DNA from: Acidobacteria bacterium Mor1
GTDB lineage: Bacteria > Acidobacteriota > Polarisedimenticolia > Polarisedimenticolales > Polarisedimenticolaceae
Direction: 5' to 3'
Assembly (NCBI GenBank): GCA_001664505.1
Contig: CP011806.1
Span: 4,168,177 to 4,232,176 of the forward strand
DNA: 64,000 nucleotides
The first letter of the stretch is position 1. The number at the start of each line of letters is the position of its first letter. A program made the translations under genes and the position numbers. The notes under the pieces are model-generated. The model was not told the origin of the DNA, ran no database searches, and saw only the letters and a list, made by a program, of their open reading frames with translations. This document shows positions 12,061-58,900 of the stretch, one piece after another.

Positions 12061-12113
12061 CGTCCTTACTCCATTAATGGGTACTTGATCAGTTCCTATT
12101 GTAGCGCATCGTG

Positions 12114-12154
12114 CATTCGAATAAATCGAACGTTCGGTGAGATCATTTCGAATG
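12114..12154. promoter_or_regulatory. Nested palindromes in an AT-richer divergent promoter region
   Basis: An outer inverted repeat CATTCGAA (12114-12121) / TTCGAATG (12147-12154) surrounds the 10-bp palindrome CGAACGTTCG (12127-12136). The region is clearly richer in AT than its surroundings and lies between the divergent genes starting at 12060 (minus) and 12237 (plus). This is the expected form of an operator, but the regulator is not identifiable. Confidence 0.4.
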
Positions 12155-12236
12155 AGGAGGCTCGGGGGATAGGTTTCGTTCGTTCAAGATCGGGCCCGGA
12201 ACGGCGCCGTAATCTCCCCCGCGGAGGTTCGATCCG

Positions 12237-13319: not shown

Positions 13320-13475
13320 GTAGATCGTCAGGTACATCCCTGGTGCGCGTAGTGTCCTGCGGATAGAACGCCGTCGCGAGATATCCGGCTCAAAACCGAC
13401 CTGATCTTCGCACACCTTTCCGGCACAACCTGTGAGAAGTCGGGTAATCCGCTCAGCCCGCAGCCCTTTCCCATC

Positions 13476-13491
13476 TGGCGCGGGCCTTGCT
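13476..13491 (+). promoter_or_regulatory. Candidate sigma-54 (-24/-12) promoter
   Basis: TGGCGCGGGCCTTGCT matches the sigma-54 consensus TGGCACG-N4-TTGCW at every fixed base but one, with the required 10-nt spacing between the GG and GC doublets. It lies 48 nt upstream of the start at 13539. No enhancer-binding protein gene is in the window, so the activator is unknown. Confidence 0.5.
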
Positions 13492-13538
13492 CTCCGAATC
13501 GGCTCAGCTAGTTCACTGGGCACGAATTGGAGAGCGAT

Positions 13539-31542: not shown

Positions 31543-31568
31543 AAACCCCCGCCCAGGCTGGGTTTTTT
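31543..31568 (+). terminator. Rho-independent terminator after the cytochrome gene
   Basis: AAACCC (31543-31548) pairs with GGGTTT (31560-31565), with a small internal GCC/GGC pairing, followed by a T6 run at 31563-31568. It begins 8 nt after the stop codon. Confidence 0.7.
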
Positions 31569-31668: not shown

Positions 31669-32397
31669 ATGCGGCTGTACCGCCAGGAGTGGGACTGGAG
31701 CTGGGACGAACTGAACAAGCGGGTGGTCGACGAGATCGCCGGTCTCAGGAGTTTCGGCCGTGAAGGCCGGGAGCACGTCCCCGGCGCCATCGAGATCACC
31801 ATCCGGGTCGCCAGCGGCAGCGTCGCCACCGTCGAGCAGTTCGCCGCCGATCCGGAGTTCCGCGCCCAGATCGAGGCGGGGTTGCTCAATCGGCTCAATC
31901 GGATTCCGCGCCACGCCCTGCCCGAGATCGCCCTCGGGGTCGTCGCCGACAATCTCGACCGTATCGACGTCAAGGAGGGCACGCTGGCCGCCCCGGCCCG
32001 GCTGCGGCTGCGCCCCCGGGATGGAGACGATGGAGCATGGTCCGCCGTCGAGTACTCCCTGCCCGCTGCCCAACGGTTGTTCGCCGTCGGCCGCGGCCGC
32101 TGGCATGGCGCCGACGATCGCCTGCGCAACGACGTGGCGCTCCCCGCCGAGGCGCGCTTCGTAAGCCGCCGCGCCGCTCAACTGACCCGCAAGGGCCGCT
32201 ATCTCGAGGTGGCGACCCGCGATCAGGGCAAGCACCTGACCGTGGAGTGGAACGAAGAATGGGCCCGCCCCGCCCGGGTCGCTGCCTCCGGCGTACTGGT
32301 CGGTATCGGCGGCGCGATTCATCTCGACGGTATCCAGGCCTCCGACCGCCTGACCCTCGAAGTGTTGGCCGACGACGACGCCCAGGAGGTCTCATGA
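31669..32397 (+). CDS. FhaA-like protein (DUF3662-like plus degenerate FHA)
   Basis: A 242-residue cytoplasmic protein, first gene of the phospho-signalling/cell-wall operon. Residues about 40-110 (HVPGAIEITIRVASGSVATVEQFAADPEFRAQIEAGLLNRLNR, ALPEIALGVVADNLDRIDVKEG) resemble the DUF3662 N-terminal domain of actinobacterial FhaA. Residues 130-235 look like an FHA domain: LFAVGRGRW, RNDVALP, FVSRRAAQLTRKGRYLEVATRD. The usual SRxH histidine is replaced by Ala, so phosphothreonine binding may be weakened. FHA proteins recruit pThr-marked partners; mycobacterial FhaA binds phosphorylated cell-wall factors. It overlaps the next gene by 4 nt (ATGA). The domain calls are by eye. Confidence 0.62.
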   Translation: MRLYRQEWDWSWDELNKRVVDEIAGLRSFGREGREHVPGAIEITIRVASGSVATVEQFAADPEFRAQIEAGLLNRLNRIPRHALPEIALGVVADNLDRIDVKEGTLAAPARLRLRPRDGDDGAWSAVEYSLPAAQRLFAVGRGRWHGADDRLRNDVALPAEARFVSRRAAQLTRKGRYLEVATRDQGKHLTVEWNEEWARPARVAASGVLVGIGGAIHLDGIQASDRLTLEVLADDDAQEVS

Positions 32398-33482
32398 AAT
32401 TGCCTGCGCTCCGCCCGCTGCGGATGAAGCTTCCTTCGGTTCGCATGAACTACCGCCCGGTGCGCCGCATCGGCCGGGACCGCTTCGAGGTTCGCTTCGA
32501 GCGTCTCAAGCGAGAGCTTTTGCCGCTGCGCAAGCAGATCCTGATGGACCGCAGCATGCTGCAGGTCGATCCCCAGCTGATCCTCGAGGCGATCCGCCGG
32601 GTGATGCCCTATTGCGAACTTCACGACGGCGCCGGCAACCGGCTGGTCTGGAACGAGTTCAAGGTGTTTCTCGCCCGTGAAGATCACGACGAGTTCGCGC
32701 CGATGGAGCCGCGGCTGGTGGCCGAGGCGGACCAGGTGCTCGACGCCTACCGCAAGTCCCTGGGCGCCGAGGCGATCGGCGACCTGACCCTGCGCCTGCT
32801 GGTCGACGACAGTGACGCGGTCGAGGGCCGGGTCTCGGTGATTCAGGTGGCGGCCAAGGCCAACAAGGCGCTCAACGAGTACGTCGCGCCGCCCGAAGAG
32901 ATCACCGTGCGGCTGCCCGCCGCGGGCGCGGGGTCGGACAAGGGCGCGTCCAGCCCGGTACCCGGCTACCCGTCGCTCGAGCGTCCCCCCTTCGATTTCC
33001 CCGCGGAACCGGTGGCGGTCGGGTCCGACGGACAGACCGGCGTCCACCCGAACGGAAACGGCGTCAGCCACGGGCTCAACGGCAACGGGCATCACGGCTA
33101 CGCCGCCGAGGACCAGCCCACCGATCGCCTCGTCGAGGACGTGCACGGGCTGACCCTGCGCTGGGACGGTGGTTCGGCGTCGGTCGGCCCCGGCGTGCGC
33201 TGGACCGTGGGGCGTCAGGCCGACACGCCCCCGGCCGACTACTGCATCGCCCTGAGCAACGCCTCGACCCGCATCTCGACCCGCGCCTTCTGGATCGAGG
33301 GCAAGGTCGACGCCGACGGCGAGATCGACGGCGCGACCATCGGGCGCTTCGATCACGACACCGCAAACGCCGTGCACATCAACGGCGAACTGCTCGGCCG
33401 CGGCCAGGAGATTCGCATCTTCGATTTCCCCACCGCCATCGAACTGACCGGCGGTGAATTCCGGCTCAGCCTCGAACGATGA
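32394..33482 (+). CDS. Second FhaA-like protein (DUF3662-like plus degenerate FHA)
   Basis: A 362-residue cytoplasmic protein starting at ATG 32394, overlapping the previous stop. Residues about 60-160 (LVWNEFKVFLAREDHDEFAPMEPRLVAEADQVLDAYRKSLG, IGDLTLRLLVDDSDAVEGRVSVIQV) match the DUF3662/FhaA N-terminal pattern better than the preceding gene. A Pro/Gly/Asn-rich linker with a His/Asn stretch (GNGVSHGLNGNGHHG) follows. The C-terminal 100 residues resemble FHA (VRWTVGRQADTPPADYCIALSNASTRISTRAFWIEG, NAVHINGELLGRGQEIRIFDFPTAIELTGGEFRLSL) with the VGR and HINGE elements but an altered SxxH. It probably serves as an adaptor between kinase and cell-wall machinery. Confidence 0.65.
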   Translation: MKLPALRPLRMKLPSVRMNYRPVRRIGRDRFEVRFERLKRELLPLRKQILMDRSMLQVDPQLILEAIRRVMPYCELHDGAGNRLVWNEFKVFLAREDHDEFAPMEPRLVAEADQVLDAYRKSLGAEAIGDLTLRLLVDDSDAVEGRVSVIQVAAKANKALNEYVAPPEEITVRLPAAGAGSDKGASSPVPGYPSLERPPFDFPAEPVAVGSDGQTGVHPNGNGVSHGLNGNGHHGYAAEDQPTDRLVEDVHGLTLRWDGGSASVGPGVRWTVGRQADTPPADYCIALSNASTRISTRAFWIEGKVDADGEIDGATIGRFDHDTANAVHINGELLGRGQEIRIFDFPTAIELTGGEFRLSLER

Positions 33483-35032
33483 GGCCGGGTGTGGTCAACG
33501 GCCACGAGGCCAACGTGGCCAGTGGTAGCAACGGCATCGCCGTGGGCGCCGTCCAGACCCACAAGGGCCTGGTCCGGGAAAACAACGAGGACAGCTACGT
33601 CTTCGATCTGACCCGGGGGCGCTTCGCCGTAATCGACGGCATGGGCGGCCAGCAGGCGGGAGAGGTCGCCGCGGCGCTGGTGCGCGATTCGCTGCTCGGC
33701 GACGATCAGCTTCCCCGGGCGATCCATCGGGCCAACCAGGAGATCTACGAGCGGGCCGCGTTGAACGAGGTGGAGCAGGGGATGGGATGTGTGGTCACTG
33801 CGGTGCAGATGACCGACAGCCGGCTGCAGATCGCCCACGTCGGGGACACCCGCGCCTACCTCGCCCGCGAAAACGGCTGCCGTCTGCTGACCCGGGATCA
33901 CACGACCACCGCCGATCGCCAGCAGGATCTGGTGCTCAGCGATGCCGTGGCCCGCACGCTGCCCGGGCAACACCAGGTCACCCGGGATGTCGGCGGGCTC
34001 TCCCATACCGACGATTCCTGGATCTTCACCGGCAGCGAACCCTTCGAGCCCGGCGACCTGCTGCTGCTCTGTAGTGACGGGCTGCACGACCTGGTACCCA
34101 GCGACGAACTCTACGGGTTGCTGCGCCAGGCTAAAAACGCCGGCGAAGAACCCTCCCGCCTGGTGCGCCGCCTGGTGCAGCTTGCGTTGGAACGGGGTGG
34201 CAAGGACAACGTCACCGTGCTCGCCGTGCGCCGGGAGGTGCCCGAACTGCCCGAGGTCAAGGTCTCCCGGCCGCCACGTTCATCGCGGACATTGCTGCTC
34301 TCGACATTGGGCGCGGCGCTCCTGGTCGGGGGAGGGTTGATCGGCATCGCCGCCGATCGCTACTGGGGCCAGGCGCCCTTTGCCGCCGAAGGGCTGGTCG
34401 ATGCTTCCCGCCGGCCGACGTTGGTCGCCGCGGGAGCCGCGGGGCTCGCCGGCGAACTACATCCGGCGACCCTCAAGGTGCTGGGAGATCTCGAGGCGCC
34501 GGCGGGAGTGCAGCGCAGCGTGATCCGCGCGCCCGCCTTCGGTGAGGGAGCGGTCGCCGTCCACGGAATGAACCTGCATTTTCCCGCCGAGGGGCGTCAC
34601 GAGTGGGAAATCACCGTGCGTCCCGGCGCAGCGCTGGAATTGACCCAGGCGTCGATCCGTGCGCCCAACCTGGTGCTGCGGGTGGTGTTCGAGGGCGCCG
34701 GCAGCCGGGTGCGTATTCTCGACTCCCATCTCGAGATCGCCGAGTTGATCGTCGACGGAAACGTCGCCGGAGCGTTGGAGCTTCAGGGCGGCTTCGTCGG
34801 CGTGGCCGAGCCCGTGGAGACCTTGTCGACGACTCCGGGGCCGCTGCTGGTCCGTGCGCCCTACCCGGCGCCTGCGCCGCCGGCGGCCGAGGGTGATGTT
34901 TCCGCTGCAGGCGCAGCGGCCGGTCAAGACGCTGACGGCGCTGCAGGGAGCGGCACGGATGGCGCGGCGGAGTCTGCCGGCGCCGGGGGAAATCAAACCA
35001 ACGAGGAGGAGAGCGAGGGCTCTACACCTTGA
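33479..35032 (+). CDS. Membrane PP2C-type Ser/Thr phosphatase (PstP/Stp-like)
   Basis: A 517-residue protein. Residues 18-252 are a complete PP2C domain: VRENNEDSY, AVIDGMGGQQAGEVAA (Asp53), HVGDTRAYLAR (122-129), CSDGLHDLV (Asp200), and GGKDNVTVLAV, with all metal-binding aspartates present. A single membrane helix follows at about 271-292 (LLLSTLGAALLVGGGLIGIAA), then a 220-residue extracytoplasmic region rich in short beta strands (LKVLGDLEAPAGVQRSVIRAP, NLVLRVVFEGAGSRVRILDSHLEIAEL), possibly a beta-helix. Mycobacterial PstP also has a PP2C-membrane-extracellular layout. It removes phosphates placed by Ser/Thr kinases. It overlaps both neighbours by 4 nt. Confidence 0.93.
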   Translation: MRPGVVNGHEANVASGSNGIAVGAVQTHKGLVRENNEDSYVFDLTRGRFAVIDGMGGQQAGEVAAALVRDSLLGDDQLPRAIHRANQEIYERAALNEVEQGMGCVVTAVQMTDSRLQIAHVGDTRAYLARENGCRLLTRDHTTTADRQQDLVLSDAVARTLPGQHQVTRDVGGLSHTDDSWIFTGSEPFEPGDLLLLCSDGLHDLVPSDELYGLLRQAKNAGEEPSRLVRRLVQLALERGGKDNVTVLAVRREVPELPEVKVSRPPRSSRTLLLSTLGAALLVGGGLIGIAADRYWGQAPFAAEGLVDASRRPTLVAAGAAGLAGELHPATLKVLGDLEAPAGVQRSVIRAPAFGEGAVAVHGMNLHFPAEGRHEWEITVRPGAALELTQASIRAPNLVLRVVFEGAGSRVRILDSHLEIAELIVDGNVAGALELQGGFVGVAEPVETLSTTPGPLLVRAPYPAPAPPAAEGDVSAAGAAAGQDADGAAGSGTDGAAESAGAGGNQTNEEESEGSTP

Positions 35033-38000
35033 ACAGTCGCAAGTTCGAGTTGATCCTCTTCGCATCGACCCTTCTGATCAGCCTGTGGCTGGCACACGGG
35101 GTGGTCGATCTGGTCGTGGAACGCGCAGATGCGGCTCGGAGCGCAGCCGCCGCGGAGGCACCGCCGGCCGAGCAGGCCCAGGTCGTCCAGGGATCCGCTG
35201 CGGAAGCGGATGCCGCGTTGCCTACGGTGACGGGTGCCCGTGCCCGGGCGTTGCGCTCCATGGGCTTCTATTTGCTGGGCATGGTCGCCCTCGGGGCCGC
35301 GCGGGTCTACAGCCTGCGCCGGGGCCGGCGGAACCTGCCGGCGTTCTGGATCCTGCCGGCAGTCGCCTGCGCCACCGGCATCGGACTGGTCTCCCAGATG
35401 ACTCACGGCAATCCGCTGGTCGAGGGCAGTTGGCGCGGGCCCGGCTTTGCCCTCGGTGTCGGCCTGGCGGCGCTGCTCTCCGCGGCGATCCTGGCCATGC
35501 CTGCGGATCCGTTGCAGCTACTCCGCCGGTATCGCTTGCCGGTGACGCTGTTCGTAGTCTTCGGCGGCGTCTTGTTGTGGCTCTTCGGTAGCGGTCCCGA
35601 GGGCACTCGCTCCCAGATCAATCTGCACCTCGGTCCGCTTTCGATGCAGCCGATCGAGGCGATCAAGCTGGCCTTCGTCTGCCTGATGGGTTTGTTCCTC
35701 GGCGAGAAGGCGGTGCAGCTGCGCTATCAGCGGGTGCGTGCCGGTTGGCTGCAGTTCCCGCGGCCGCGCTATCTGGCGGCGGCGTGTGCGGCGCTGGGTG
35801 CGCTCTTCATCGTGTTGGCGCTCCTGGTGCGGGACCTGGGGCCGACCCTGGTGCTCTCCTCGGTCTTCCTGCTGTTGTTCTATCTGTCGACCCGCGCCGG
35901 CGGCTGGTTGGTCGCCGCGCTGGCCGTGCTGGCCTTCGGCTTCTGGTTCGTCTCGCTGGATCCGACGATCACCGGGTCCCAGACCCTGGCCACCCGCTTC
36001 GACATGTGGCGCGACCCCTGGATGAACGGACTGCCTCACGGCTCCCAGCTCGCATCGTCGCTGTGGGCCATCGCTGCCGGCGGTTTCGGTGGGCGGGGCC
36101 TGGGCGAGGCGGATGTGGCGGCGCTCCCCGCATCCCACACCGACTTGATGATCGCCCACATCGCCGAGACCACCGGCCTCTGGGGCGGGCTGTTGTACCT
36201 GCTCTGCCTCGGCGCCTGCATCCTGCAGGGGCTGGCGATTGCCGCCCGCAACCGGGAGCCGGAACGGGTGTTGATCGGTGCCGCCTGCTGTTTGCTGCTG
36301 CTCAGTCAGTGGGCGGTGATCTTCGGCGGGACGACCGGCTTGCTGCCCCTGACCGGGCTCGCCGTTCCGTTTCTCTCCTTCGGCAAGAGCAGCATGATCG
36401 CCTTCCTGCTGGCGGTAGCCATCGTGCTGCGCCTGTCGGAGGACGGCGCTCCCCGGGCGGCGACCACCGAGTTGCGGGAGCTGCGCGCCGCCGTTTACCG
36501 GGTGGCCGCCGGGAGCGCCGTGGCGCTGTGCGCCGCCGGTGCCTTCTTGCTGTACCTCGGCGTGGTGCGCGGCCCGGACTACGCGGCTCGCGGCGTGCTC
36601 GAAACCCTGGCCGACGGCACGACCCGGATCCGGCACGACCCCCGTCTCAGCCGCGCGGTCGCGCGCATTCGCCGCGGAGCCCTGCTCGACCGCCACGGCG
36701 AGGTGCTGGTCGGCACCCGGCTCGACGGCCGGCGGGAGTATCCGCTGGGAGATGCCCTGGGAGCGCTTGTCTGTCCGCCGGACGCGGGGCGCGTGCTCCG
36801 CCGCGATTGGTGCCTGGAGCGCATTCACGAGCTGACCCTTCGCGGCTACCCCGAACAGACGGTCCGGCCCGCGCTGTGGCGCACTCCCGACCAAGCTCTC
36901 GGCGAGCGCACCCTGTTCGCCGTGGCCACAGGCGAGGAAACCGCCGACGATCGCCAGCGAGCGACCCTGCTGGCCGGCGGCGAGCCGGTGCGGTTCGTGC
37001 CGCTCTCGGTCCCCGATCTCTCCTCGATGGCGGGGCTCGTGCGCTCGCGCAAGACCAGCAGCCGCGAGCAACTGGAAGCGTTGTCCCAGGATGTGGCGGC
37101 GCGCTCGGTGCGGCTGACCCTCGACGCCGGCCTGCAACAGAAGGCGGCGGAGATCCTGGTCAAACACCTGGGTGAAGGTGCTGCCGCAGCGACGGTGGTC
37201 TTGGATGTCGATACCGGCGAGGTGCTGGCCCGGGCCCAGGCGCCCGACGTCGATCTCTCCAACGACGACTGGTACCGCCCGGTGATCGACGGCGACCCGC
37301 AGTACACCGGGATCTACGGCCCCTGGGCCGACAAGACCGGCACCCTCGGTTTCAAGCAGGCGGGTTCCATCGCCAAGCTGTTCACCACCCTGGCGGCGGC
37401 TCGCGACGGGCTGCCCACGGTGGCGGTCGAGGGCTGCAACATCCGTTCGATCCGGACCTTCGAGTGCACCAAGCGGGATCACATCGGAAGCGTTTTCGAC
37501 CGGCCCGGCTGGGTGCGGCCGATTCACGATCACCCCAAGGATCGCTCCCACGGCGTGATCGATGTCTCCGAGGCGCTGGCCCGGAGTTGCAACGTCGCCT
37601 TCTCGGAGCTGACCCTGGATACCGGGCCGGGCCCGCTCAGGCGTCTGGCCGACCAGGTGGACATCGGCTGGGAGCGCGGTTTCGAGCCGGGCGCTCCGGG
37701 GACCCGCCGGCTGGCTTCTACCGGCATCGGCCAGGGAGCGGCGGTGTTCAACGTGTCCCAGGCGGCGCGCATGGTCGCGGCGATCGGCGGTGGTGGGGTG
37801 TATCGCCGCTGTCCGCCGGGGCTGCGCCTTGGAGATGCCTGCGAGGAGACCCTGCTGGTCGACGACCCCTCACGGCTGGGCATCCTGCTGGCCGGGATGC
37901 GCCGGGCGATGCAGACCGGCACCGGCTCCCTGTTGCCGAAGGTTCCGGGTGTGCGCATGTACGGCAAGACCGGCACCGCCGACTCCGAGGCGACCCGTGA

Positions 38001-38229
38001 CGAGAAGCCCTACGGCATCGGCGAGGAGGATGGGCCCCTGGCGCCGCACTCCTGGTTCGTGGCGCTGGCGGAACCGGAAAGTAACTCCCCCTGCGGCACC
38101 GGCAATACCGGCCGGCTCGCCGTGGCGACGCTGATCGCCCGCGGCGGCGGCGGTACACGCGCCGGAGCGGCCACCGTCGAGATCATCGCCGCGGCTCGCA
38201 ACCTCGGCTATCTCGGCGACGGGCCGTGA
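35029..38229 (+). CDS. SEDS glycosyltransferase-class B PBP fusion (RodA/FtsW-PBP)
   Basis: A single 1066-residue polypeptide joining both halves of a peptidoglycan synthase. Residues 1-160 hold about four membrane helices with a periplasmic loop. Residues 165-470 are a SEDS polymerase: the LPASHTDLMIAHIAETTGLWG motif holds the catalytic-type Asp372, and PFLSFGKSSMIA matches the FLSYGGSS element. After a helix at 490-510, residues 515-1066 form a class B penicillin-binding transpeptidase: SxxK at Ser780-Lys783 (GSIAKLFT), SxN at Ser853-Asn855 (SCNVAF), KTG at Lys980-Gly982 (YGKTGTAD). In most bacteria rodA/ftsW and pbp genes are separate. TTG 35029 overlaps the PP2C stop, after GAGGAGG. Confidence 0.93.
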   Translation: MNSRKFELILFASTLLISLWLAHGVVDLVVERADAARSAAAAEAPPAEQAQVVQGSAAEADAALPTVTGARARALRSMGFYLLGMVALGAARVYSLRRGRRNLPAFWILPAVACATGIGLVSQMTHGNPLVEGSWRGPGFALGVGLAALLSAAILAMPADPLQLLRRYRLPVTLFVVFGGVLLWLFGSGPEGTRSQINLHLGPLSMQPIEAIKLAFVCLMGLFLGEKAVQLRYQRVRAGWLQFPRPRYLAAACAALGALFIVLALLVRDLGPTLVLSSVFLLLFYLSTRAGGWLVAALAVLAFGFWFVSLDPTITGSQTLATRFDMWRDPWMNGLPHGSQLASSLWAIAAGGFGGRGLGEADVAALPASHTDLMIAHIAETTGLWGGLLYLLCLGACILQGLAIAARNREPERVLIGAACCLLLLSQWAVIFGGTTGLLPLTGLAVPFLSFGKSSMIAFLLAVAIVLRLSEDGAPRAATTELRELRAAVYRVAAGSAVALCAAGAFLLYLGVVRGPDYAARGVLETLADGTTRIRHDPRLSRAVARIRRGALLDRHGEVLVGTRLDGRREYPLGDALGALVCPPDAGRVLRRDWCLERIHELTLRGYPEQTVRPALWRTPDQALGERTLFAVATGEETADDRQRATLLAGGEPVRFVPLSVPDLSSMAGLVRSRKTSSREQLEALSQDVAARSVRLTLDAGLQQKAAEILVKHLGEGAAAATVVLDVDTGEVLARAQAPDVDLSNDDWYRPVIDGDPQYTGIYGPWADKTGTLGFKQAGSIAKLFTTLAAARDGLPTVAVEGCNIRSIRTFECTKRDHIGSVFDRPGWVRPIHDHPKDRSHGVIDVSEALARSCNVAFSELTLDTGPGPLRRLADQVDIGWERGFEPGAPGTRRLASTGIGQGAAVFNVSQAARMVAAIGGGGVYRRCPPGLRLGDACEETLLVDDPSRLGILLAGMRRAMQTGTGSLLPKVPGVRMYGKTGTADSEATRDEKPYGIGEEDGPLAPHSWFVALAEPESNSPCGTGNTGRLAVATLIARGGGGTRAGAATVEIIAAARNLGYLGDGP

Positions 38230-40418
38230 GTATGGTGCCCGCGATCGAAATTCCGGGGCACGCCGTGGTGCGGGCCCTGCGCCACGGAGCGGGGTTCGAG
38301 CGCACCGTGCTGTTGACCGAGCGGGACGGCACCCGCTGCGTGACCCGGATCTGGAATACCGAGGTGCCCCGGGACCGGTTGGACATCCTGCGCGGCGTCG
38401 CCGCCGGCAAGGAAATCCCGGCCGACGCGTTCCCCCGGGATCTGGCGGCGGACTTCGAGGGCTACCGCGTACGCGCGAGCCTGGGAGATTTTCCGGCGCT
38501 GTCCGAGGTGATCGACGTCGGCCTGCTCACCCCCGACGACGAGCGTTCACGGCCGTTCATCACCACCCGCTGGGTCGAAGGGGACACCCTGCGGGACGCC
38601 CTGCAGAACTACGAGATCGACTTCGAGCAGCGCGCGCAGATCCTGCGCCAACTGCTGCAGATCCTCGCCGACCTGCATCGCCACAACGTGCTGCACGGGG
38701 ACATCAAACCGGAGAACGTGATCGTCTCTACCGGCCGAACCCATCTGATCGATCTCGATACGCTGCGTCAGGTCCAGGGGCCGACGGATTTCGCAATCGT
38801 CTCCCAGGTCACCTGGTCCCGGGTCTGGCCCGAGTGTCAGCGGGATCGCCCCGACGGGCAGCGGGACTACATCGCATCGCTACCCAGCGATTTGTGGACC
38901 TACGGGCTGCTGGTTTCGGAACTCCTCGGCCGGAAGCTGCCCGGCGATCGCGGGTTCCCTCCGGAGTTGCCTCCGCCGTGGAACGCGGTGCTGAAGGCAT
39001 GCTTGCGGGCCCGTCCCGAGACCCGGCCGAGCACCGAGGAGTTGTTCAAGGCGGTCCACGCCCTGCCGGCAGATCTCGGTTCCTGGGAAGGAGACGGCGA
39101 TCCCTCCCACGACGAGGCCACGGTGCGGGTGCCCGACCGCAATCCCGTCGAGAGACTTCGGGTGGTTCCGCCGCCGCGGTTGACCGACCGGGTCGACGAC
39201 GGCACGGCGAGTGCCGGTGCCGCGGCCGCTTCGGCGGCTCCGGTGCTGCTGGCGGTTCCCGCAGCGGCTGACGGGGTTGCCCCTCGGCCCCACGAGCCGA
39301 CGTCACGGGTCGCCGACTCCGAAGAAATCCCTCCCGATCCCCGCCGGTCCAGGAAGCGGACCGGGTTGTGGCGGGTGCTGCTGTTCGTCGCGCCGATCGC
39401 CCTGCTGCTGGCGCTGGCCAATCTGATGCAGCACAACGAGGCGCCGAACCATCCGGAACTCGCCGAGCTGCGGCGGCAGATGCAGGAACACAAGAGCGAA
39501 CCGGCGTTCAACACCCAGGCTCGAGCTCGCGAACTCGCCGCCGAGGTGGGGGCGGCCGCCTTCGCCTTCGACATGGATCGTCCCGATGTCGCTGCAGACG
39601 CCTGGGGTCTCTACGCGCTGTTCAGCGTGTGGGGTCAGGGATGGCACTTCGCCAGTCAGGGGCAACTGGACCAGCGGGAGTTCGATCTGCATTACTCCCG
39701 CGCCGGTTTCGCCCTCCAAAGGCGTCACTCCCGGGAAGCGCTGCTGGCCCGGGCCATTGCCGCCGGTGCGGCCTGCCGGTTGGGCTGGGGAACACCCCGC
39801 CGCTCCGAATACTGCGACGAGGCCAGGGAGCGAACACGAGACCTGCTGCAGCTGCGCCTCGACGGCTGGTTCAAGATCGAGGTGTTGTGGAACGCCGGCA
39901 TGTTGGAGCGGAATGAGGCGCTGATCGCCTGGGACGCGGGCAACCCTGCGGGCTATCGCCGTCACGCCCAGGCAAACCTGGAACTTTGCGACGCCGGTGA
40001 ATCCATCGTCGGTGAGGCGCCGATCAACGGTTCGGAGTTCGCCGAACACTGCATCGCCGCGGCGTTGGCCGTCGGCGATCCGGGCAAGTGGTTGTGGTGG
40101 ACCGAGGTTCTGGAGGAGACCGGCGCCCGGGATCGCCGCAAGATCGCCGATCACATCTTCCGCAACGCCCACCCCGAATGCAGGGACCAGCCCTTCCGCT
40201 TTGCCGTGTTCCGCGGGCGAGGGCGGGACCCCGGGGCGATCGAGTACTGCGCCTTCCAGGCGTTGACCGCGATGCAGTGTCCCGAACGGGCGCTCCAGTC
40301 GGTCTGCGGCTACGACGAACGAGGCTGCGAACTCCCCGAACCCGGGGACGTGCCCTGGGACCTGGCGGCCCGGGCCCGCAGCCGGGCCGCGACCGCCTCC
40401 TGTTTTCTCGACGACTGA
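38226..40418 (+). CDS. Membrane Ser/Thr-kinase-like protein with altered catalytic motifs
   Basis: A 730-residue protein starting at GTG 38226, overlapping the previous stop. Residues 10-285 have the kinase fold: glycine-rich HGAGFERTVLL, catalytic loop HGDIKPENVIV (157-167; Asp159, Asn164) and APE-region-like DLWTYGLLVSELLGRKLPGD, then RPSTEELFKAV. The usual VAIK lysine is Arg41 (VTRIW), HRD reads HGD, and DFG reads DLD (176-178), so it may be a weak kinase or pseudokinase. A Pro/Ala-rich linker leads to a membrane helix at about 381-401 and a 330-residue periplasmic helical region with ten cysteines and no PASTA repeats. It occupies the place of pknA/pknB in the actinobacterial locus. Confidence 0.85.
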   Translation: MSMVPAIEIPGHAVVRALRHGAGFERTVLLTERDGTRCVTRIWNTEVPRDRLDILRGVAAGKEIPADAFPRDLAADFEGYRVRASLGDFPALSEVIDVGLLTPDDERSRPFITTRWVEGDTLRDALQNYEIDFEQRAQILRQLLQILADLHRHNVLHGDIKPENVIVSTGRTHLIDLDTLRQVQGPTDFAIVSQVTWSRVWPECQRDRPDGQRDYIASLPSDLWTYGLLVSELLGRKLPGDRGFPPELPPPWNAVLKACLRARPETRPSTEELFKAVHALPADLGSWEGDGDPSHDEATVRVPDRNPVERLRVVPPPRLTDRVDDGTASAGAAAASAAPVLLAVPAAADGVAPRPHEPTSRVADSEEIPPDPRRSRKRTGLWRVLLFVAPIALLLALANLMQHNEAPNHPELAELRRQMQEHKSEPAFNTQARARELAAEVGAAAFAFDMDRPDVAADAWGLYALFSVWGQGWHFASQGQLDQREFDLHYSRAGFALQRRHSREALLARAIAAGAACRLGWGTPRRSEYCDEARERTRDLLQLRLDGWFKIEVLWNAGMLERNEALIAWDAGNPAGYRRHAQANLELCDAGESIVGEAPINGSEFAEHCIAAALAVGDPGKWLWWTEVLEETGARDRRKIADHIFRNAHPECRDQPFRFAVFRGRGRDPGAIEYCAFQALTAMQCPERALQSVCGYDERGCELPEPGDVPWDLAARARSRAATASCFLDD

Positions 40419-40481
40419 CGGCAGGGTGGGTGTGATGAGTAGGCCTTTTGATCGCGATGACCGAACGAAGAGGTGCCGGCC

Positions 40482-41195
40482 GTGAACGTGATGCTCGAAG
40501 TCGACGGAAAGATGCACCGGGTGGAACTGTCCGACGAGTCGCCGCTACTCGATGTGGGGCGGCTGCCCCAGAACCACATCACGCTCCACGAGCCGAGCAG
40601 TATCTCGGGCCGGCATCTGACCATTCGCTGGTCCGACGGCTGGTGGGTTCAGGACAGCTCGACCAACGGCACCCGGGTCAACGGCAGCTGGTTCCGGGGA
40701 AGCGCGGTGGCCCTGGATGTCGATTCGGTCCTCGAGGTCGAGGGGCATGTCCTGATCGTCCACGACCTGCCGGTGCCGGTCTCCGAAGCCACCGACCGTG
40801 CCCGCTCGCTGCTGCTGCTGGCGCTCAACGACGGCGTCGTCAAACTCCACGCCGGCCAGGGAGAGGTGATCGCCGCGATTCCGCCCCAGCAGTACAACCT
40901 GCTGCGGGAGCTGGTGATGCGTTGGCGGGGCCTCGAGTTCGGCTCCGTCGACCGGGAGCAGGAGTTCGCGCTGCTGGGCTCCCTGGAGGCCGGCGCCGAT
41001 CCCAACGTGCGCTTGCACCAGTGCCGCTGCCGGCTGCGCAAGTGGTGGCGGGAGCTGCGCAAGACCGAGCCCCGTGCGCTTCAGGGGTTGCCCCGGGACC
41101 TGCTGGAGGTTCAGGCGGGCGGCGTGCGGCTGACCCTCGAGGCGGCCGCGGTGGATGTGGAGAGCTACGAGCTGGAACGGCCCCAGCGAGGCTAG
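40482..41195 (+). CDS. FHA domain protein with winged-helix-like C-terminus
   Basis: A 237-residue cytoplasmic protein. GTG 40482 is preferred because GAAGAGG lies 8 nt before it; GTG 40473 is too close. Residues 2-95 form a canonical FHA domain: LLDVGRLPQNHITL, SSISGRHLTIRW and DSSTNGTRVNG hold the conserved Gly-Arg, Ser-Arg-His and Asn residues for phosphothreonine binding. Residues 105-237 resemble an OmpR-type winged helix: IPPQQYNLLRELVMRW, VDREQEFALLGSL, VRLHQCRCRLRKWWRELRK, LEVQAGGVRLTL. It could turn kinase output into transcription, as mycobacterial EmbR does with a different domain order; this is inference. It is last in the operon, 63 bases after the kinase gene. Confidence 0.82.
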   Translation: MNVMLEVDGKMHRVELSDESPLLDVGRLPQNHITLHEPSSISGRHLTIRWSDGWWVQDSSTNGTRVNGSWFRGSAVALDVDSVLEVEGHVLIVHDLPVPVSEATDRARSLLLLALNDGVVKLHAGQGEVIAAIPPQQYNLLRELVMRWRGLEFGSVDREQEFALLGSLEAGADPNVRLHQCRCRLRKWWRELRKTEPRALQGLPRDLLEVQAGGVRLTLEAAAVDVESYELERPQRG

Positions 41196-41234
41196 GGCCG
41201 CGACTCGGTTAGACTTGGAATCTCAGGGGGTCCC

Positions 41235-42791
41235 ATGAGATTCGATCGGTCGGTACGCGTCCTCTCTCTCACACTGTTTTTAGGTCTCTGTTTGCCCGCG
41301 TCGGCGGCGACGCCCGGCTGGGAGGCCTTTGATCGCTACGTGGCCGCGGCCGCCGAAGAGTGGCGGGTGCCCGGGCTGGCCATCGCCGTGGTCAAGGACG
41401 GGGAGCTGGTGTTCGAAGGGGGCTACGGAACGACCCGGCTGGGCGACGGCACGCCGGTCGACCCGGACACGTTGTTCTCCATCGGATCGACCACCAAGGC
41501 GATGACCGCCGCCGCGATCGGCATGCTGGTCGACGAGGGCAAGCTTGCCTGGGACGACCCGGTGACGAAGTACCTGCCTGGTTTCCGCCTGGCCGATCCC
41601 ACCGCCACGGCCCAACTCCGGGTGCGGGATCTGCTGACCCACAACGCGGGGGTGCCCAATACCGACCTGCTCTGGTACGAGCAGGACCACGATCTTGACG
41701 AGATCCTGCGGCGCATGCAGTACGTGGAGTTGCAGACGCCGATGTACTCCCGCTTCGAGTACCAGAACGTGATGTACGCCGCGGCCGGAAAGTTGACCGA
41801 GGTGGTCTCGGGGAAGTCCTGGGTCGAGTTCATCGAGAGCCGCATCTTCGCGCCGCTTCAGATGACCCGTTCGGTGGCCAGCCTCGCTCGCAGCGAGCTG
41901 CGGGATAACGTCGCCTCGCCTCACTACATGATTGACGACGAGGTAGCGGTCATCGAGAACGCTACCGTCGACTCGGTGTCGGCGGCGGGTTCGGTCTGGT
42001 CCAGCGTGCGGGAGATGAGCCGCTGGTCCCGCTTCCTGCTCGAAGGCTGCGTCACTGCCGCGGGTGAGCGGCTACTCGCCGCGGCGACCTGCGACGAGCT
42101 GTTCCGGCCGCGGACGCTGATTCACGAAGAGGTCTACCCGGCGATGCGGCTCTATCCCCAACGCTGGTTCAGCTACAGCCTCGGCTGGTTCCAGACCGAC
42201 TACAACCGGAGGGTGCTGGACATGCACACCGGTTCCATCGACGGGCTGGTGGCGATCCACGGGTTGGTGCGCGCCGAGAAACTGGGCGTGGTGATGCTGG
42301 CCAACCTGGATCACGCCGAGCTGCGCCACGCCCTGATGTACCAGGCCCTCGATCACCTCGATCCGTCGATCGCCGCCGACGACCGCCGGGACTGGAACCG
42401 TGAGGTCAAGGAGTTGTTCGACGAGATCCGCAGGGAAGGAGAGGCCCGAGCCGAGCAGGCCGAGCGTGAGTTGCGAGCCGACCCCCGTCCGGCTCGGGCG
42501 CCCGACGCCTACGCCGGTACCTACGTCGATCAACTCTTCGGCGAGGTGCAGGTCACCCAGGAAGGAGACCGTCTGCGCCTGAGCTTCGGCCGGATGGCCT
42601 GCACCCTCGAGCCTTCGGGGGGCGACAGCGCCCGCTGCCCGCTGGACTCCCGCTGGCGAGGAGAATCGACGGTGATCTTCGTGCCCGGCCCCCGAGGACA
42701 CATTCGCCAGCTGCGTATGTGGGGGCTGGAGTTCAACAAGCGTCGTCTGCCGGCATCCCCTGAAGCGGGAGACGGCGCGGAAGGCAGCTAG
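41235..42791 (+). CDS. Serine hydrolase, class C beta-lactamase family with C-terminal domain
   Basis: A 518-residue exported protein with signal peptide cleaved near ASAATPGW. Motifs of the class C beta-lactamase/DD-peptidase fold are clear: SxxK Ser85-Lys88 (FSIGSTTKAMTAAAIG), YxN in FEYQNVMYAAAGKLTEVVSGKSW, and HTG in DMHTGSIDGLVAIHG. The last 110 residues (DAYAGTYVDQLFGEVQVTQEGDRLRLSFG...LRMWGLEFNKRRL) resemble the DUF3471 beta-barrel appended to peptidase-like members. CAGGGGG lies before the ATG. It follows the kinase/FHA operon by 39 bases but has its own ribosome site and may be separately transcribed. Its stop codon overlaps the convergent gene's stop (CTAG). Confidence 0.9.
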   Translation: MRFDRSVRVLSLTLFLGLCLPASAATPGWEAFDRYVAAAAEEWRVPGLAIAVVKDGELVFEGGYGTTRLGDGTPVDPDTLFSIGSTTKAMTAAAIGMLVDEGKLAWDDPVTKYLPGFRLADPTATAQLRVRDLLTHNAGVPNTDLLWYEQDHDLDEILRRMQYVELQTPMYSRFEYQNVMYAAAGKLTEVVSGKSWVEFIESRIFAPLQMTRSVASLARSELRDNVASPHYMIDDEVAVIENATVDSVSAAGSVWSSVREMSRWSRFLLEGCVTAAGERLLAAATCDELFRPRTLIHEEVYPAMRLYPQRWFSYSLGWFQTDYNRRVLDMHTGSIDGLVAIHGLVRAEKLGVVMLANLDHAELRHALMYQALDHLDPSIAADDRRDWNREVKELFDEIRREGEARAEQAERELRADPRPARAPDAYAGTYVDQLFGEVQVTQEGDRLRLSFGRMACTLEPSGGDSARCPLDSRWRGESTVIFVPGPRGHIRQLRMWGLEFNKRRLPASPEAGDGAEGS

Positions 42792-53123: not shown

Positions 53124-53152
53124 TCCCGCATGGATTGTTCGACGAGAGGAGT

Positions 53153-54388
53153 ATGCCCATGGTGTCCTCACGGACCCTCGTGGCTTTCGCCGTCATCGCG
53201 ACGGCATGTCCCGCAGTATTCGCGGCCGCCGAGTCTCTGACCGAGGCCGCATGCCTTGAACGGTTTCGCGCCGAGAGTCCCGACGCCCGCAGGATCGCGT
53301 TGATCGAGCGAGCGGGTGATCTGGCGGCGACTGCAGCCGGGCGGCCGGATGATCCGACCCTGTCCTATCAGCGGGAGGATGCCCTCGGTGCGCGGGACGA
53401 GTTTCTCAGTGTTGCCCAGCCATTGCCGCTGACCGGTCGCCGGCGTCTGGTTCGCAGCAGCGTCGCGGCCGCGTCCACTGCGGAACGGTACGCCGCCCGT
53501 CGCGATCTCGCCGATCGCGAGGCGGCGCTACGCCGGGCCTTTCAACGGGTGTTGCACCAGGAAGCGATGCTCGAGCTGCACCGGGAGGGTTTGGCCCGCC
53601 TGGAGGAGCTGGTGCGGGTTCTCGCCGAACGAGAGCGCGCCGGCGAGGGTTCGGGCTACGACCTGCTGCGCGTCGAGCAGGAGCACGCGGCGGTACAGAT
53701 TGCCGCGGGCCGCATCGAGGGCGAGGTCGCTTCGGCCCGGGCGCGGTTCGGCTCGTTCTTCGCCGCGGAACAGGAGATGGCCCGGCAGGTGTTGGTCGAG
53801 GGTCCGAAGCAGCCCCGGCCGACACCGTCGGACGAGGAGGCGCTGGCCGCGGCCTTTGCACGGCGCAGCGATCTTGCCGCCGCCAAAGCCCGCCGGGAGC
53901 GCTTCGATCTCGATCGTCGTGCTGCGGTGCGGTCGCGGGTTCCGGAGCCGGAGCTCCAGGCGGGGCTCAAGCGTAGCGAGAGCGACGGTGCTCGAGACAC
54001 CGGTTTCTTTGCCGCGGTCAGTCTGCCGCTCAGGATCTCGGGGCGCGGCAAGCTCGAGGCCGCCCGTGCGGCATCTCGCCGGGATCGCGCGGAGCTCGAG
54101 ATCGAGGTGCTCGAGCGGAACGTGCGCGCCGAAGTGCTGGAAGCTCTGTCCCGGGAGCGCGCCGCTCGGGGCGTGTGGCAGCGGGGCCGGCAGAGTATCG
54201 CCCGCGCCGAGCAACTCCGTTCGATCGCCGAGCTGGCCTACCGGGAAGGAGAGGGCCGGGTGCTCGATCTGCTCGATGCCTACCGCAGCACTCTCGAGGC
54301 CGAGGTCTCTGCCCGTGAGCTGCGTTTCGAGGCGAAGCTGGCCGAGCTCGAAACCGACCGTGTGATGGAAAGCGAGGTCTCGCCATGA
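53153..54388 (+). CDS. TolC-family outer-membrane efflux protein (CzcC/CusC-like)
   Basis: A 411-residue exported protein. ATG 53153 has GAGAGGAG directly upstream; ATG 53159 with better spacing is possible. A signal peptide ends near FAAAES. The rest is two long helical repeats as in outer-membrane efflux proteins: TLSYQREDALGARDEFLSVAQPLPLTGRRR, then coiled segments LREAFQRVLHQEAMLELHREGLARLEELVRVLAERERAGEGSGYDLLRVEQE and the second-half ERNVRAEVLEALSRERAARGVWQRG...AYREGEGRVLDLLDAYRSTLEAE. It forms the outer-membrane channel for the RND pump downstream. It overlaps the adaptor gene by 4 nt. Confidence 0.9.
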   Translation: MPMVSSRTLVAFAVIATACPAVFAAAESLTEAACLERFRAESPDARRIALIERAGDLAATAAGRPDDPTLSYQREDALGARDEFLSVAQPLPLTGRRRLVRSSVAAASTAERYAARRDLADREAALRRAFQRVLHQEAMLELHREGLARLEELVRVLAERERAGEGSGYDLLRVEQEHAAVQIAAGRIEGEVASARARFGSFFAAEQEMARQVLVEGPKQPRPTPSDEEALAAAFARRSDLAAAKARRERFDLDRRAAVRSRVPEPELQAGLKRSESDGARDTGFFAAVSLPLRISGRGKLEAARAASRRDRAELEIEVLERNVRAEVLEALSRERAARGVWQRGRQSIARAEQLRSIAELAYREGEGRVLDLLDAYRSTLEAEVSARELRFEAKLAELETDRVMESEVSP

Positions 54389-55950
54389 GAAGCGTGTGTG
54401 TCGTCTTGTTGAGCGGTTTGCTCCTGGCCGGTTGCGGTCTGCCGGAGCGTCAGGGTTCGGGGCACGGTCATGGCCATGATCACGGACCACACGGTCACGA
54501 TGGTGACCACGGCCACGATCACGGCCAGGAAGCTCGAACGCTCTGGAGCGAGCACAGCGAACTCATGCTGGAGCATCCGCCGCTGGTGGCCGGTGAGGCC
54601 GCCCGGGTGGTGATGCACATCACCGAGCTGAGCGGCTTTCGACCGGTCGCCGGCGCGTCGGTCTCGTTGACCCTGACCGATGCCGCCGATGCCGTGGAGC
54701 GCTTCACGGCGGAACCGTCTCAACCGGGTATCTACGCGGTCGAGGTCACGCCCCGAGGCGCCGGTTTGTCCCGCATGGCGGTACGCATCCAGGCCGGCGA
54801 GATGGACGACGTCCACGAAGCGGGCATCGTCACGGTTCACACGGCCGGCAGTCATCCGTCGAGCGAGACCGGCGCTGCCGAAGACTCGATCGCGTTCAGC
54901 AAGGAGCAGCAGTGGGCGCTGGACTTCGGCGTCGCCGCTGCAGAGCAGCGCGCCGTGCAGGGCGGTCTGACGGTGCCGGCCGACGTGCACGCGCGAACCG
55001 GCGGTGATGCGACCCTGACCGCGCCTGTGCCGGGAAGGATCGATCCTTCCGGTGAGGTGCCGCACCCCGGAGCACGGGTCCGCGCCGGGCAGGTGCTGGC
55101 CCACATCCTGCCCCGCTCCGACGACCTGCGGGACGCGGCGGCTCTCCGCGCCGACGTGGTCGCGCTGGAGCAGGAACGCGGCCTGGCGCAACGGGAAAAG
55201 GAGCGGGCCGAACGGTTGGTCGATGCCCGGGCGGTGCCTGCCCGGCGGCTGGATCAAGCCCGGGCGGATCTCGCCTCGGCCGAGGCCGGCCTCGAGGCGG
55301 CCCGGGCGCGATGGGATCGCTATCGGTTGTTGAGCGATCCCCAGGCCTCGGACCCCGACGGTGGATACACGATCCGGGCTCCCTTCGATGGGGTGGTGAT
55401 CGAGGTGTCCTTTGCTGCAGGGGAGAGTGTCGAGCAGGGGCAGCCGCTGCTGCAGTTGATCGATCCGGACGAGGTGCACCTGGTCGGCCTGGTGCCGGAG
55501 TCGTCGGCCCAGGGACTCGACAATCTGACCGGCGGGGAGTTGATCGTCCGCGGCCAGCAGCCCCGCCGGCTCGGCACCCCTCTGGTCGTCGGTCCGGTGA
55601 TCGACCCCGGAGGGAGGACGACCGAGGTCTGCTTCTCCTTCGATAATCGGGAGGCGGGTCTGGCCCTGGGATCCAGGGTCGAGGTCCGCCTGTTCCGCGG
55701 AGATCCGGTCGAAGCAACCACGATTCCCGAGTCGGCGCTGATCGACGACGCGGGAGTTCCGGTGGCCTACGTGCAGGTCGGAGGGGAGTCCTTCGAGCGC
55801 CGCATGTTGCGCCTGGGTGACCGCGCCGATGGTTTCGTCCAGGTGCTCGAGGGGCTCGAGCCCGGCGAACGGGTCGTGGATCGCGGTGCGTACCTGGTGC
55901 GTCTGGCCAGTGCGGCCGACGCCGCGCCCTCTCACGGGCATGTCCACTAG
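54385..55950 (+). CDS. RND efflux adaptor (CzcB/CusB-like) lipoprotein with His-rich N-terminus
   Basis: A 521-residue periplasmic adaptor. The signal ends in a clear lipobox LLLAGC (Cys17), followed by a metal-binding stretch (GHGHGHDHGPHGHDGDHGHDHG, residues about 26-48). An extra beta domain (55-150) precedes the HlyD-type core: VPADVHARTGGDATLTAPVPGRIDPSG, a helical hairpin (LRADVVALEQERGLAQREKERAERLVDARAVPARRLDQARADLASAEAGLEAARA), and the lipoyl/barrel part with IRAPFDGVVIEVSFAAGESVEQGQPLLQLID. The C-terminus ends HGHVH. It links the pump to the TolC-type channel and may bind metal as CusB does. Confidence 0.93.
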   Translation: MRSVCVVLLSGLLLAGCGLPERQGSGHGHGHDHGPHGHDGDHGHDHGQEARTLWSEHSELMLEHPPLVAGEAARVVMHITELSGFRPVAGASVSLTLTDAADAVERFTAEPSQPGIYAVEVTPRGAGLSRMAVRIQAGEMDDVHEAGIVTVHTAGSHPSSETGAAEDSIAFSKEQQWALDFGVAAAEQRAVQGGLTVPADVHARTGGDATLTAPVPGRIDPSGEVPHPGARVRAGQVLAHILPRSDDLRDAAALRADVVALEQERGLAQREKERAERLVDARAVPARRLDQARADLASAEAGLEAARARWDRYRLLSDPQASDPDGGYTIRAPFDGVVIEVSFAAGESVEQGQPLLQLIDPDEVHLVGLVPESSAQGLDNLTGGELIVRGQQPRRLGTPLVVGPVIDPGGRTTEVCFSFDNREAGLALGSRVEVRLFRGDPVEATTIPESALIDDAGVPVAYVQVGGESFERRMLRLGDRADGFVQVLEGLEPGERVVDRGAYLVRLASAADAAPSHGHVH

Positions 55951-55959
55951 GAGGCGGAG

Positions 55960-58900
55960 ATGATCGACGGGCTGATTCGCTGGTCACTCCAGAACAAGCT
56001 GATCGTGCTGACCCTGGCAGCGGGGCTCCTGATCTGGGGCGGGGCCCAGGCGCTGCGCTTGCCGGTCGACGTGTTGCCCGACCTGACTGCGCCGACGGTC
56101 ACGATCCTGGTCGAAGGGGGTGGTATGGCTCCCGAGGAGATGGAGTCCCGGGTGACCTTCCCCATCGAAGCGGCGCTCAACGGAGCCGCCGGTGTGCGGC
56201 GAGTCCGCTCGGTGACCGCCGTCGGAGCGGTGATCGTCTGGGTCGAGTTCGACTGGGGGGAGGATATCTACCGGGCGCGTCAGACGGTCAACGAGAAGCT
56301 GGCCCTGGTCGCCGGCACCCTTCCCGACACCGTGGAGCCGCCGGTGCTGGCTCCGATCTCCTCCATCATGGGTGAGATCCTGTTCGTCGCCCTGGAGTCC
56401 GGAAAGCACTCGATGCTCGACGTGCGGGCCACTGCGGACACGGTGGTTCGCCGACGCCTGTTGGCAGTGCCCGGGGTGTCCCAGGTCACCACCATCGGTG
56501 GCGCCGAGCGGCAGTACCAGGTGCTGGTCAATCCGGAGCGACTGCGTTCCTTCGGTGTGACCCTCGACGAAGTCGAGCACGCCCTGCGCTCGACCGACCG
56601 CAACACATCCGCCGGCTTTCTGGTCGGGAGCGGGCAGGAATACCTGATTCTCGGAATCGCCCGCCCCGACACCGTCGAGCAGATCGGTGAGACGGTGGTA
56701 CTGGCGCGGGACGGCCGGCCGGTGCGAGTGGCTGACCTCGGTGAGGTGCGGGTCGGTCCGGCGCTACGCCGGGGCGAGGCCGGCTACAACGGCCGGCGTG
56801 CGGTGCTGATCGGCATCCAGAAACAGCCCGGCGCCCACACCCTGGAGTTGACGGCGCGGCTGGACACGGTGCTGGACGAACTGCAGGCCAGCCTCGACCG
56901 GGGCCTGGTGCTGCAGCGGGACGTGTTCCGTCAGGCAGGCTTCATCGAGTCGGCGATCCACAACCTGACCCGGGCGTTGCGCGACGGCAGCCTGCTGGTG
57001 GTGTTGATCGTGTTCCTGTTCCTGGCGAACCTGCGGGCGGCGTCGATTGCGGTGCTGGCCATGCCGCTGTCGCTGATCGCCTCGGCGCTGGCGATCAAGT
57101 GGAGCGGTGCCACGATCAACAGCATGACCCTGGGCGGGATGGCGATTGCCGTCGGCGCCATCGTCGACGACGCGATCATCGACGTGGAGAACGTCTTCCG
57201 TCGCTTGCGGGAGAACACCCGGCGGCCGGAAGGTGAGCGCCGCCCGGTGCTCGAGGTCGTCTATCAGGGAAGCCGCGAGATCCGGGCGTCGATCGTGTTC
57301 GCCACGCTGGTCATTGCGCTGGTGTTCCTGCCGCTGTTCTTCCTGCACGGCGTCGAGGGCCGGTTGTTGCGCCCGCTGGGCTTCGCCTACCTCGTGGCGT
57401 TGACCGCGTCGCTGGTGGTGGCGTTGACGGTGACGCCGGTGTTGTGCGCACTGCTGTTGCCCCGCTCGCCGGCGGTGCGCTCGGGCCATGAACCCCGCTG
57501 GCTGACGGCGCTCAAAGATGGCTACCAACGCCTGCTCGAGGGCTGCCTGCGCCATGGCCGCTGGCTGCTGGCCGGGTCGGCGTTGGCGCTTGCGCTGGCC
57601 GCAGCATCCTTCGGCTGGATGGGCCGCACCTTCCTACCCGAGTTCAACGAGGGCACCCTGACGATCAGCGCCGTGACCCTTCCCGGCACCAGCCTCGACG
57701 AATCCGATGCACTCGGCGCCGCCGCCGAGCGACTGTTGCTCGAGGTTCCCGAGGTGACGGTCACCGGGCGGCGCACCGGACGCGCCGAACTGGACGAACA
57801 CCTGCAGGGGGTGGAGGCCACCGAGATCGAGGTCGGACTGCATCTCGAAGAGCGGTCCAAGGAGCAGGTGCTGGAACACATCCGCGAACGGTTGGCGCTC
57901 TTGCCGGGGATGAACGTCACCGTCGGTCAGCCGATCTCCCACCGTATCGATCACATGCTGTCGGGAACCCGGGCCAACATCGCGATCAAGCTCTTCGGTC
58001 CGGAGCTTCGCGAGCTGCGGCGGCTGGCCGCCCAGGTCGAGGCGGTCGCCCGGGAGGTTCCGGGAGCGGTGGATGTCGCCGCTGAGGCCCAGGCGGAGAT
58101 CCCGACGATCCAGGTCAAGTTCGACCGGCGTGCCCTGGCGCGGTTGGGCCAGCCCGCAGGCGCCGCGGCCCAGGCGATGCGCACCGCCTTCGTCGGCCGG
58201 GAGGTGGGCCAGGTCTACGAGGATCAGGTCGGCTTCCCGCTGGTCGTGCGCTATCCGGCCGAGGTGCAGGAAAGCCTGGAGACGATCCGCCGCACCGAGA
58301 TCGACACGCCGTCGGGCGCCCGGGTGGCGCTCCAGGCGGTGGCGGAGATCCGCGAGGACCGTGGCGCCAACTTCATCGGCCGGGAGAACGGGCGGCGCAA
58401 GATCGTGGTGGCGGCCAACGTCGCCGGCCGCGACCTGCGCTCGGTCGTCGACGAGATCCGTGAGGGGGTGGCCCGCGGCGTCGAACTGCCGCCGGGCTAT
58501 TCGGTGGAGTACGGCGGCCAGTTCGAGAGCGAGGCCGCGGCTTCCAAGAGACTGCTGTGGCTCGGGCTGACCGTGGTCCTCGGCATGCTGGTCCTGTTGA
58601 CCACCGCCTTCCGCTCGGCGGGGGACGCATTGATCGTGATGCTCAACCTGCCGCTGGCGCTGATCGGCGGGGCCATCGGCGTGTTCGTCGACGGCGGGGT
58701 GCTCTCGATCGCCTCGATCATCGGCTTCATCGCGCTGTTCGGGATCGCGACCCGCAACGGGATCATGATGATCTCCCACATCCGCCACCTGCTGCTGGAG
58801 GAAGGGGAGCGCTCGTTCCGCGCCGCGGTGGTGCGCGGCGCCCGGCAGCGGGTGGTGCCGATCCTGATGACGGCGCTCTCTGCGGGCCTGGCGCTGGTGC

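Follow-up and report, generated by a model that had tools for sequence, protein, structure and literature searches.

A fused SEDS-PBP wall synthase encoded among Ser/Thr phospho-signalling genes in Acidobacteria bacterium Mor1

A six-gene locus of Acidobacteria bacterium Mor1 is, in our reading, probably a single operon that combines a third, dedicated peptidoglycan synthase with the parts of a Ser/Thr-phospho control system. The synthase would belong to an old lineage of SEDS proteins from phospho-signalling loci, which includes those of the actinobacterial pknAB/pstP loci, and the Mor1 version of the system has diverged strongly. Most work on phospho-threonine control of wall synthesis concerns Actinobacteria and Firmicutes. 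In a diderm, a fused synthase accompanied by a phosphatase, a kinase and adaptors offers a compact system for learning what FHA and kinase components regulate on a SEDS-class B PBP (bPBP) synthase.

Organization of the Locus

Mor1 has been assigned to subgroup 22 and described in association with Moorea (PMC5006271); its genome is a single contig of 5.985 Mb (CP011806). All coordinates refer to the window, the 64,000-nucleotide stretch of this contig that was analysed. An ORF check found six open reading frames on the same (plus) strand over 31669-41195, and consecutive genes from A to E overlap by exactly 4 nt at all four junctions (ATGA, ATGA, TTGA and GTGA, in that order), so that the gene layout given by the initial annotation holds in full. 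The features are as follows.

31551-31563, plus strand: terminator-like hairpin followed by a T run, 3' of the upstream gene
31669-32397, plus strand: gene A, 242 aa, soluble, without a recognised domain; open frame, ATGA overlap with gene B
32394-33482, plus strand: gene B, 362 aa, FhaA-like; FhaA_N at aa 56-139 (32559-32810)
33479-35032, plus strand: gene C, 517 aa; PP2C at aa 27-250, then one transmembrane (TM) segment at aa 272-290, then a C-terminal domain
35029-38229, plus strand: gene D, 1066 aa; SEDS at aa 156-471 (35494-36441) and transpeptidase at aa 721-1016 (37189-38076)
38226-40418, plus strand: gene E, 730 aa; kinase-like domain, TM segment at aa 384-402, Cys-containing C-terminal domain
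40473-41195, plus strand: gene F, 240 aa; N-terminal FHA domain at aa 28-72
41235-42791, plus strand: possible seventh gene, a secreted beta-lactamase-family (PF00144) serine hydrolase (Pfam 207 bits), 40 bp after gene F

The hairpin, a weak signal (chance alone would give 4.7 of them, and five were found), probably places the start of the operon at gene A. At the other end, the serine hydrolase gene lies on the same strand as gene F and is possibly co-transcribed with it. No compositional island was detected at the locus (GC 0.694, against 0.66-0.685 in the flanks), and GC3 lies between 0.82 and 0.89 in each of genes A-F. As other genomes contain this gene set too, its arrangement here is taken to be more than chance. 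Further along the window, at 53135-59058, genes for an OEP outer-membrane efflux protein and an AcrB-type RND pump fit a diderm envelope.

The Fused Wall Synthase

Protein D holds both halves of a wall synthase in one polypeptide, as had been proposed: Pfam assigns FTSW_RODA_SPOVE to its N-terminal half (160 bits) and Transpeptidase to its C-terminal half (67 bits), and according to hydropathy the PBP half keeps its own anchor, a TM segment at aa 495-513. The SEDS catalytic residue is Asp372 within LPASHTD (the HTD motif); it matches Asp262 of E. coli RodA, mutation of which abolishes activity (PMC10449877). The transpeptidase motifs are likewise in place (S780xxK783, reading SIAK; S853CN; K980TG), and the HTD, SxxK, SCN and KTG motifs are conserved in all eight fusions (8/8).

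Mor1 also encodes PBP2 and RodA as a pair close to an MreB-like gene, as well as FtsI and FtsW in the dcw cluster; gene D is therefore the third SEDS-bPBP pair of this genome. The canonical pairs share its motifs and the same two predicted enzyme activities; unlike gene D, they are encoded by separate genes, and their SEDS proteins lie across a 100/99 branch of the SEDS tree described below.

Phosphatase and Kinase-Like Protein

The initial annotation of genes C and E as a membrane PP2C phosphatase and a membrane kinase-like protein is borne out by domain matches and TM segments in both. Protein C scores 64.9 bits against PP2C in Pfam and has intact PP2C catalytic motifs; its TM segment follows from hydropathy, and its best relative among solved structures is PstP of M. 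tuberculosis (1txo, E 1.7e-23). Protein E scores 56.5 bits against Pkinase, the match covering only positions 74-197 of the profile (the C-lobe). It retains HGDIKPEN, with the Asp of HGD and the Asn of KPEN, while the beta3 Lys is replaced by Arg41, DFG reads DLD and the third Gly of the P-loop is lost. The kinases at the equivalent loci of four relatives (G216, G209, G256 and G154) retain both the Lys and DFG. Since the beta3 Lys and DFG are altered, protein E is, as judged from its sequence, probably a pseudokinase or an impaired kinase, and the loss of that Lys and of the DFG Gly makes kinase activity from within the locus doubtful. No PASTA domain was found in it by Pfam, and its score against PknB_PASTA_kin is 47.2 bits, against a cut-off of 450. 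With Arg for the beta3 Lys, DLD for DFG, no PASTA domain and a gene F that is not FhaB (see below), it is doubtful that the phospho-control unit of Mor1 is complete, as had been proposed. The genome contains 67 Pkinase matches in 6 Mb, an unusually large Ser/Thr kinase set, so that other kinases could act on the module in trans. A second poor-scoring Pkinase match was noted at C1:2580395.

Putative Adaptor Genes

Two FhaA-like proteins had been proposed, and the assignment stands for one of them. Gene B matches FhaA_N (PF12401) at 31.4 bits, over a cut-off of 25, and is the sole FhaA_N match in the Mor1 genome; its C-terminal half resembles an FHA domain in degenerate form and gives no FHA match in Pfam. 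For gene A, profile and structure runs did not bring out the likeness: it has no Pfam or NCBIfam match, scores at most 1.9 bits against the HMMs of both FhaA-type classes, and did not yield an established relation to FhaA-like proteins by hhalign. Its AlphaFold models reach a pLDDT of 31 alone and 41 with nine rows, and a subsequent Foldseek search gave nothing conclusive. By eye only, a VGR...RNDV...VSR pattern and N-terminal helices resemble the second FHA class of the relatives; gene A is possibly, and unproven, a strongly diverged homologue of the second FHA/FhaA-type protein found in related modules.

Gene F does encode the FHA protein expected as the sixth gene (FHA, 40.9 bits in Pfam), and it matches, at E 1.3e-4, the HMM for FhaA-type proteins from acidobacteria. 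It is not FhaB, scoring 19.6 bits against an FhaB cut-off of 125 and having no TM segment. To the eye, its C-terminal part looks like a winged helix; given such an end, gene F may encode a phospho-dependent transcription regulator instead of FhaB.

Distribution in Acidobacteriota and on a Plasmid

Of 297 genomes sampled from the phylum, 32 contain FhaA_N, Mor1 among them, and the domain is rare among control genomes (one of 14). A relatives search with gene B found no FhaA_N match in the other 40 genomes of the same class, nor did any fellow class member in the 297-genome sample contain one, so that Mor1 may either have retained the module or have acquired it. A long SEDS frame in the same-class genome G016 (L089) was considered as a fusion and rejected, as it is a SEDS protein without a transpeptidase match.

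The same fusion is present in six other sampled acidobacteria (G216, G209, G256, G270, G154 and G087), which belong to classes other than that of Mor1. It adjoins FhaA, PP2C and kinase genes in G216, G256, G154 and G087; in G209 and G270, the phospho-signalling neighbours are present only in part, the contigs ending there. The layout in G216 is FhaA-PP2C-STPK-(SEDS::PBP)-FHA, of which G209, G256, G154, G087 and G270 show parts or rearrangements, and the association with phospho-signalling genes spans several acidobacterial families. A tblastn search with gene D over plasmid records added a module from another phylum: the 137-kb plasmid NZ_CP089545.1 of Spirosoma oryzicola (Bacteroidota) carries FHA-PP2C-STPK-STPK-SEDS::PBP-FHA at 69767-80323 (L103, 11768-22324). 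Both FHA classes of the acidobacteria have homologues among the two FHA proteins of this plasmid (E 3.9e-14 and 3.5e-11), and the presence of a complete set on a plasmid suggests that the module can move. The corresponding tblastn search with acidobacterial FhaA over plasmid records gave no match. Several entries of that plasmid collection, among them NZ_LT559118.1, NZ_CP030101.1 and NZ_OL790696.1, are chromosome-sized and apparently misfiled (for example, an 11.9-Mb Nonomuraea "plasmid I"); they are useful as references.

The fused modules of the six acidobacteria and of NZ_CP089545.1 share with Mor1 the synthase clade, the FhaA/FHA, PP2C and kinase genes, and the conserved motifs. Unlike Mor1, these relatives have FHA domains that can be recognised and intact kinases, the latter usually encoded ahead of the synthase; in Mor1, the kinase gene follows the synthase gene, and FHA gene F was not seen in the relatives' fused modules. 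An unfused acidobacterial layout, FhaA-PBP-SEDS-PP2C-STPK-FhaA (L037), occurs in classes other than that of Mor1. It gathers the same functions in one cluster within the same phylum, including two FhaA proteins, and differs in its separate SEDS and PBP genes, its order, its intact kinase with an SH3 domain and its SEDS proteins, which form a clade of their own (100/100). Of the conserved neighbourhood that had been expected, the survey thus recovers the gene set, whereas the exact order is only partly conserved, with the kinase mostly before the synthase and the unfused loci arranged differently. Fusion as a local compaction does not hold either, as it is common to seven acidobacterial genomes and the Spirosoma plasmid.

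Separately, a scaffold of Moorena bouillonii PNG (L032, NZ_MKZS01000001.1) contains, directly after a 100-N gap, a 4,894-bp piece (10001-14894) identical to 37171-42064 of the window. Its GC content is near 0.70, far above that of the surrounding sequence (about 0.37-0.54), and this Mor1-identical piece of the Moorena bouillonii reference genome is probably contamination.

Phylogeny of the Synthase

The SEDS tree was built with references from actinobacterial pknAB-type loci (L094, L096 and L108), two further actinobacterial records (L098 and L107) and a clostridial FHA-SEDS-PBP locus (L097), along with canonical RodA, FtsW and SpoVE proteins; it is unrooted, samples only a small number of phyla and leaves out actinobacterial FtsW. 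The fusions form one clade in both the SEDS tree (100/99) and the PBP (transpeptidase) tree (97/94), and the fusion therefore apparently had a single origin. All SEDS proteins from phospho-signalling loci, whether fused, unfused acidobacterial, actinobacterial pknAB or clostridial, are split from the sampled canonical RodA and FtsW by a 100/99 branch. As the fused SEDS proteins side with the RodA of actinobacterial pknAB loci and away from canonical RodA and FtsW, the tree favours an old common ancestry of the phospho-locus SEDS proteins. To this extent, the earlier proposal of ancient conservation or transfer is supported, while the conservation of exact order that accompanied it is partial only. 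The clostridial (Monoglobus) record has FHA, SEDS and PBP genes in succession at 7473-10458 of L097 (NZ_OY725743.1), and its SEDS and PBP are placed close to those of Actinobacteria.

The grouping could instead be a tree artefact, in which independent, fast-evolving derivatives of RodA or FtsW acquired similar neighbours by convergence. Branches are long, that of Mor1 being the longest in both trees; the branching order among the fused, unfused and actinobacterial groups is weakly supported, and a clade uniting fused and unfused acidobacterial SEDS, at p-AU 0.058, is neither shown nor firmly rejected. However, the split from canonical proteins stays at 100/99.8 after removal of the three longest rows, and the loci share the rare FhaA_N domain, which makes such an artefact rather unlikely. 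On common ancestry, a broader generalization may be offered tentatively, and we would not yet favour it: that SEDS-bPBP synthases include, apart from the elongasome and divisome types, a third general class defined by genetic coupling to FhaA/PP2C/Ser-Thr kinase control. It would include the RodA of actinobacterial pknAB loci, and in Acidobacteriota and Bacteroidota would take the form of a single polypeptide, sometimes plasmid-borne, for a specialised wall-building task.

Proposed Mechanism and Alternatives

By comparison of sequences, the Mor1 copy is the most diverged of its kind: its kinase lacks key residues, FHA domains are unrecognisable in genes A and B, and no other sampled genome of its class carries the module. 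These features, along with the long branch in both trees and the absence of the locus from close relatives, might mark a decaying remnant, in which synthase and phosphatase persist while phospho-control is being lost and little function is left beside the canonical machineries. In a decaying locus, one would expect broken frames or motifs, yet all six frames are open, the overlaps are intact, GC3 is uniformly high and the PP2C, SEDS and transpeptidase catalytic motifs are preserved; we regard decay as unlikely. Still less probable is a stand-alone extra enzyme, such as a beta-lactam-tolerant spare with the phospho-signalling genes as non-regulating neighbours by operon convenience, for although a beta-lactamase-family gene lies 40 bp downstream and phospho-signalling genes are common in Mor1 (about 65 other kinases), such genes accompany the fusion across several acidobacterial families and in Spirosoma, they accompany unfused SEDS in other acidobacteria and in Actinobacteria, and the only FhaA_N copy of the genome sits at this locus.

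For the preferred reading, a dedicated synthase operon with phospho-control parts, the following mechanism may be envisaged. The locus is presumably co-transcribed. The SEDS half of protein D would polymerise lipid II and its transpeptidase half would crosslink the product, polymerase and crosslinker being covalently held at 1:1, and the synthase would serve growth, division or a specialised wall. In the relatives' module, the membrane Ser/Thr kinase would phosphorylate cytoplasmic Thr residues, FhaA-type adaptors, on binding phospho-Thr, would recruit the synthase or gate it, and reversal of the phosphorylated state would fall to the membrane PP2C. The signal, the phospho-sites and targets, and the direction of control would follow the actinobacterial locus (PMC6554272). 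In Mor1, the catalytic activity of protein E has probably been lost or changed, and it may act as a phospho-accepting or scaffold protein for another kinase of the cell; this copy of the module may no longer be controlled by a kinase.

As the gene set recurs in other acidobacteria and on a plasmid from an unrelated phylum, control of wall building by phosphorylation probably extends beyond the well-studied mycobacterial case. The tree further suggests that the "RodA" of actinobacterial pknAB loci belongs to a separate, phospho-linked SEDS lineage.

Comparison with Known Systems

Natural SEDS-PBP fusion ORFs have been mentioned before, with citation of the Rhodococcus RHA1 genome (PMC10449877), so that the fusion alone is not new; engineered RodA-PBP2 fusions show activity both in vivo and in vitro (PMC6207328). 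Both kinds join polymerase and crosslinker in one chain, as gene D does, and are described without a phospho-module context. Among the sequences sampled, the fusions reported here form a separate clade, found in Acidobacteriota and Bacteroidota. In the literature searched, which mostly excluded subscription papers, we found no report of a conserved fused phospho-module in diderms, its apparent single origin, its copy on a Bacteroidota plasmid or the grouping of phospho-locus SEDS proteins.

The closest known system is the actinobacterial locus fhaA-fhaB-pstP-rodA-pbpA-pknA-pknB, whose PstP, RodA, PbpA, PknA/B and FhaA/B control growth and division (PMC6554272). Its order was checked on annotated loci, including those of Tsukamurella (L096) and Actinomyces (L108), the latter also having overlapping genes as in Mor1. 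Both systems encode, in order, an FhaA_N protein, a PP2C phosphatase (PstP being the closest solved structure), a SEDS protein, a class B PBP and then a kinase, and their SEDS proteins lie on the same side of the unrooted 100/99 branch. In Mor1, SEDS and PBP are fused rather than adjacent, still after the phosphatase gene; the kinase-like protein lacks PASTA domains and has altered catalytic residues; FhaB (TM plus FHA) is missing, an extra gene A precedes FhaA and FHA gene F stands at the end; and the whole unit comes in addition to canonical RodA and FtsW. The initial annotation had seen the same module in the same order in a diderm, apparently non-actinobacterial genome: the order from FhaA to the kinase stands, while FhaB and a PASTA kinase are lacking. 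Because of these two absences, the Mor1 locus is not strictly of the pknAB/pstP type; by analogy with it, however, the locus plausibly works in a like manner.
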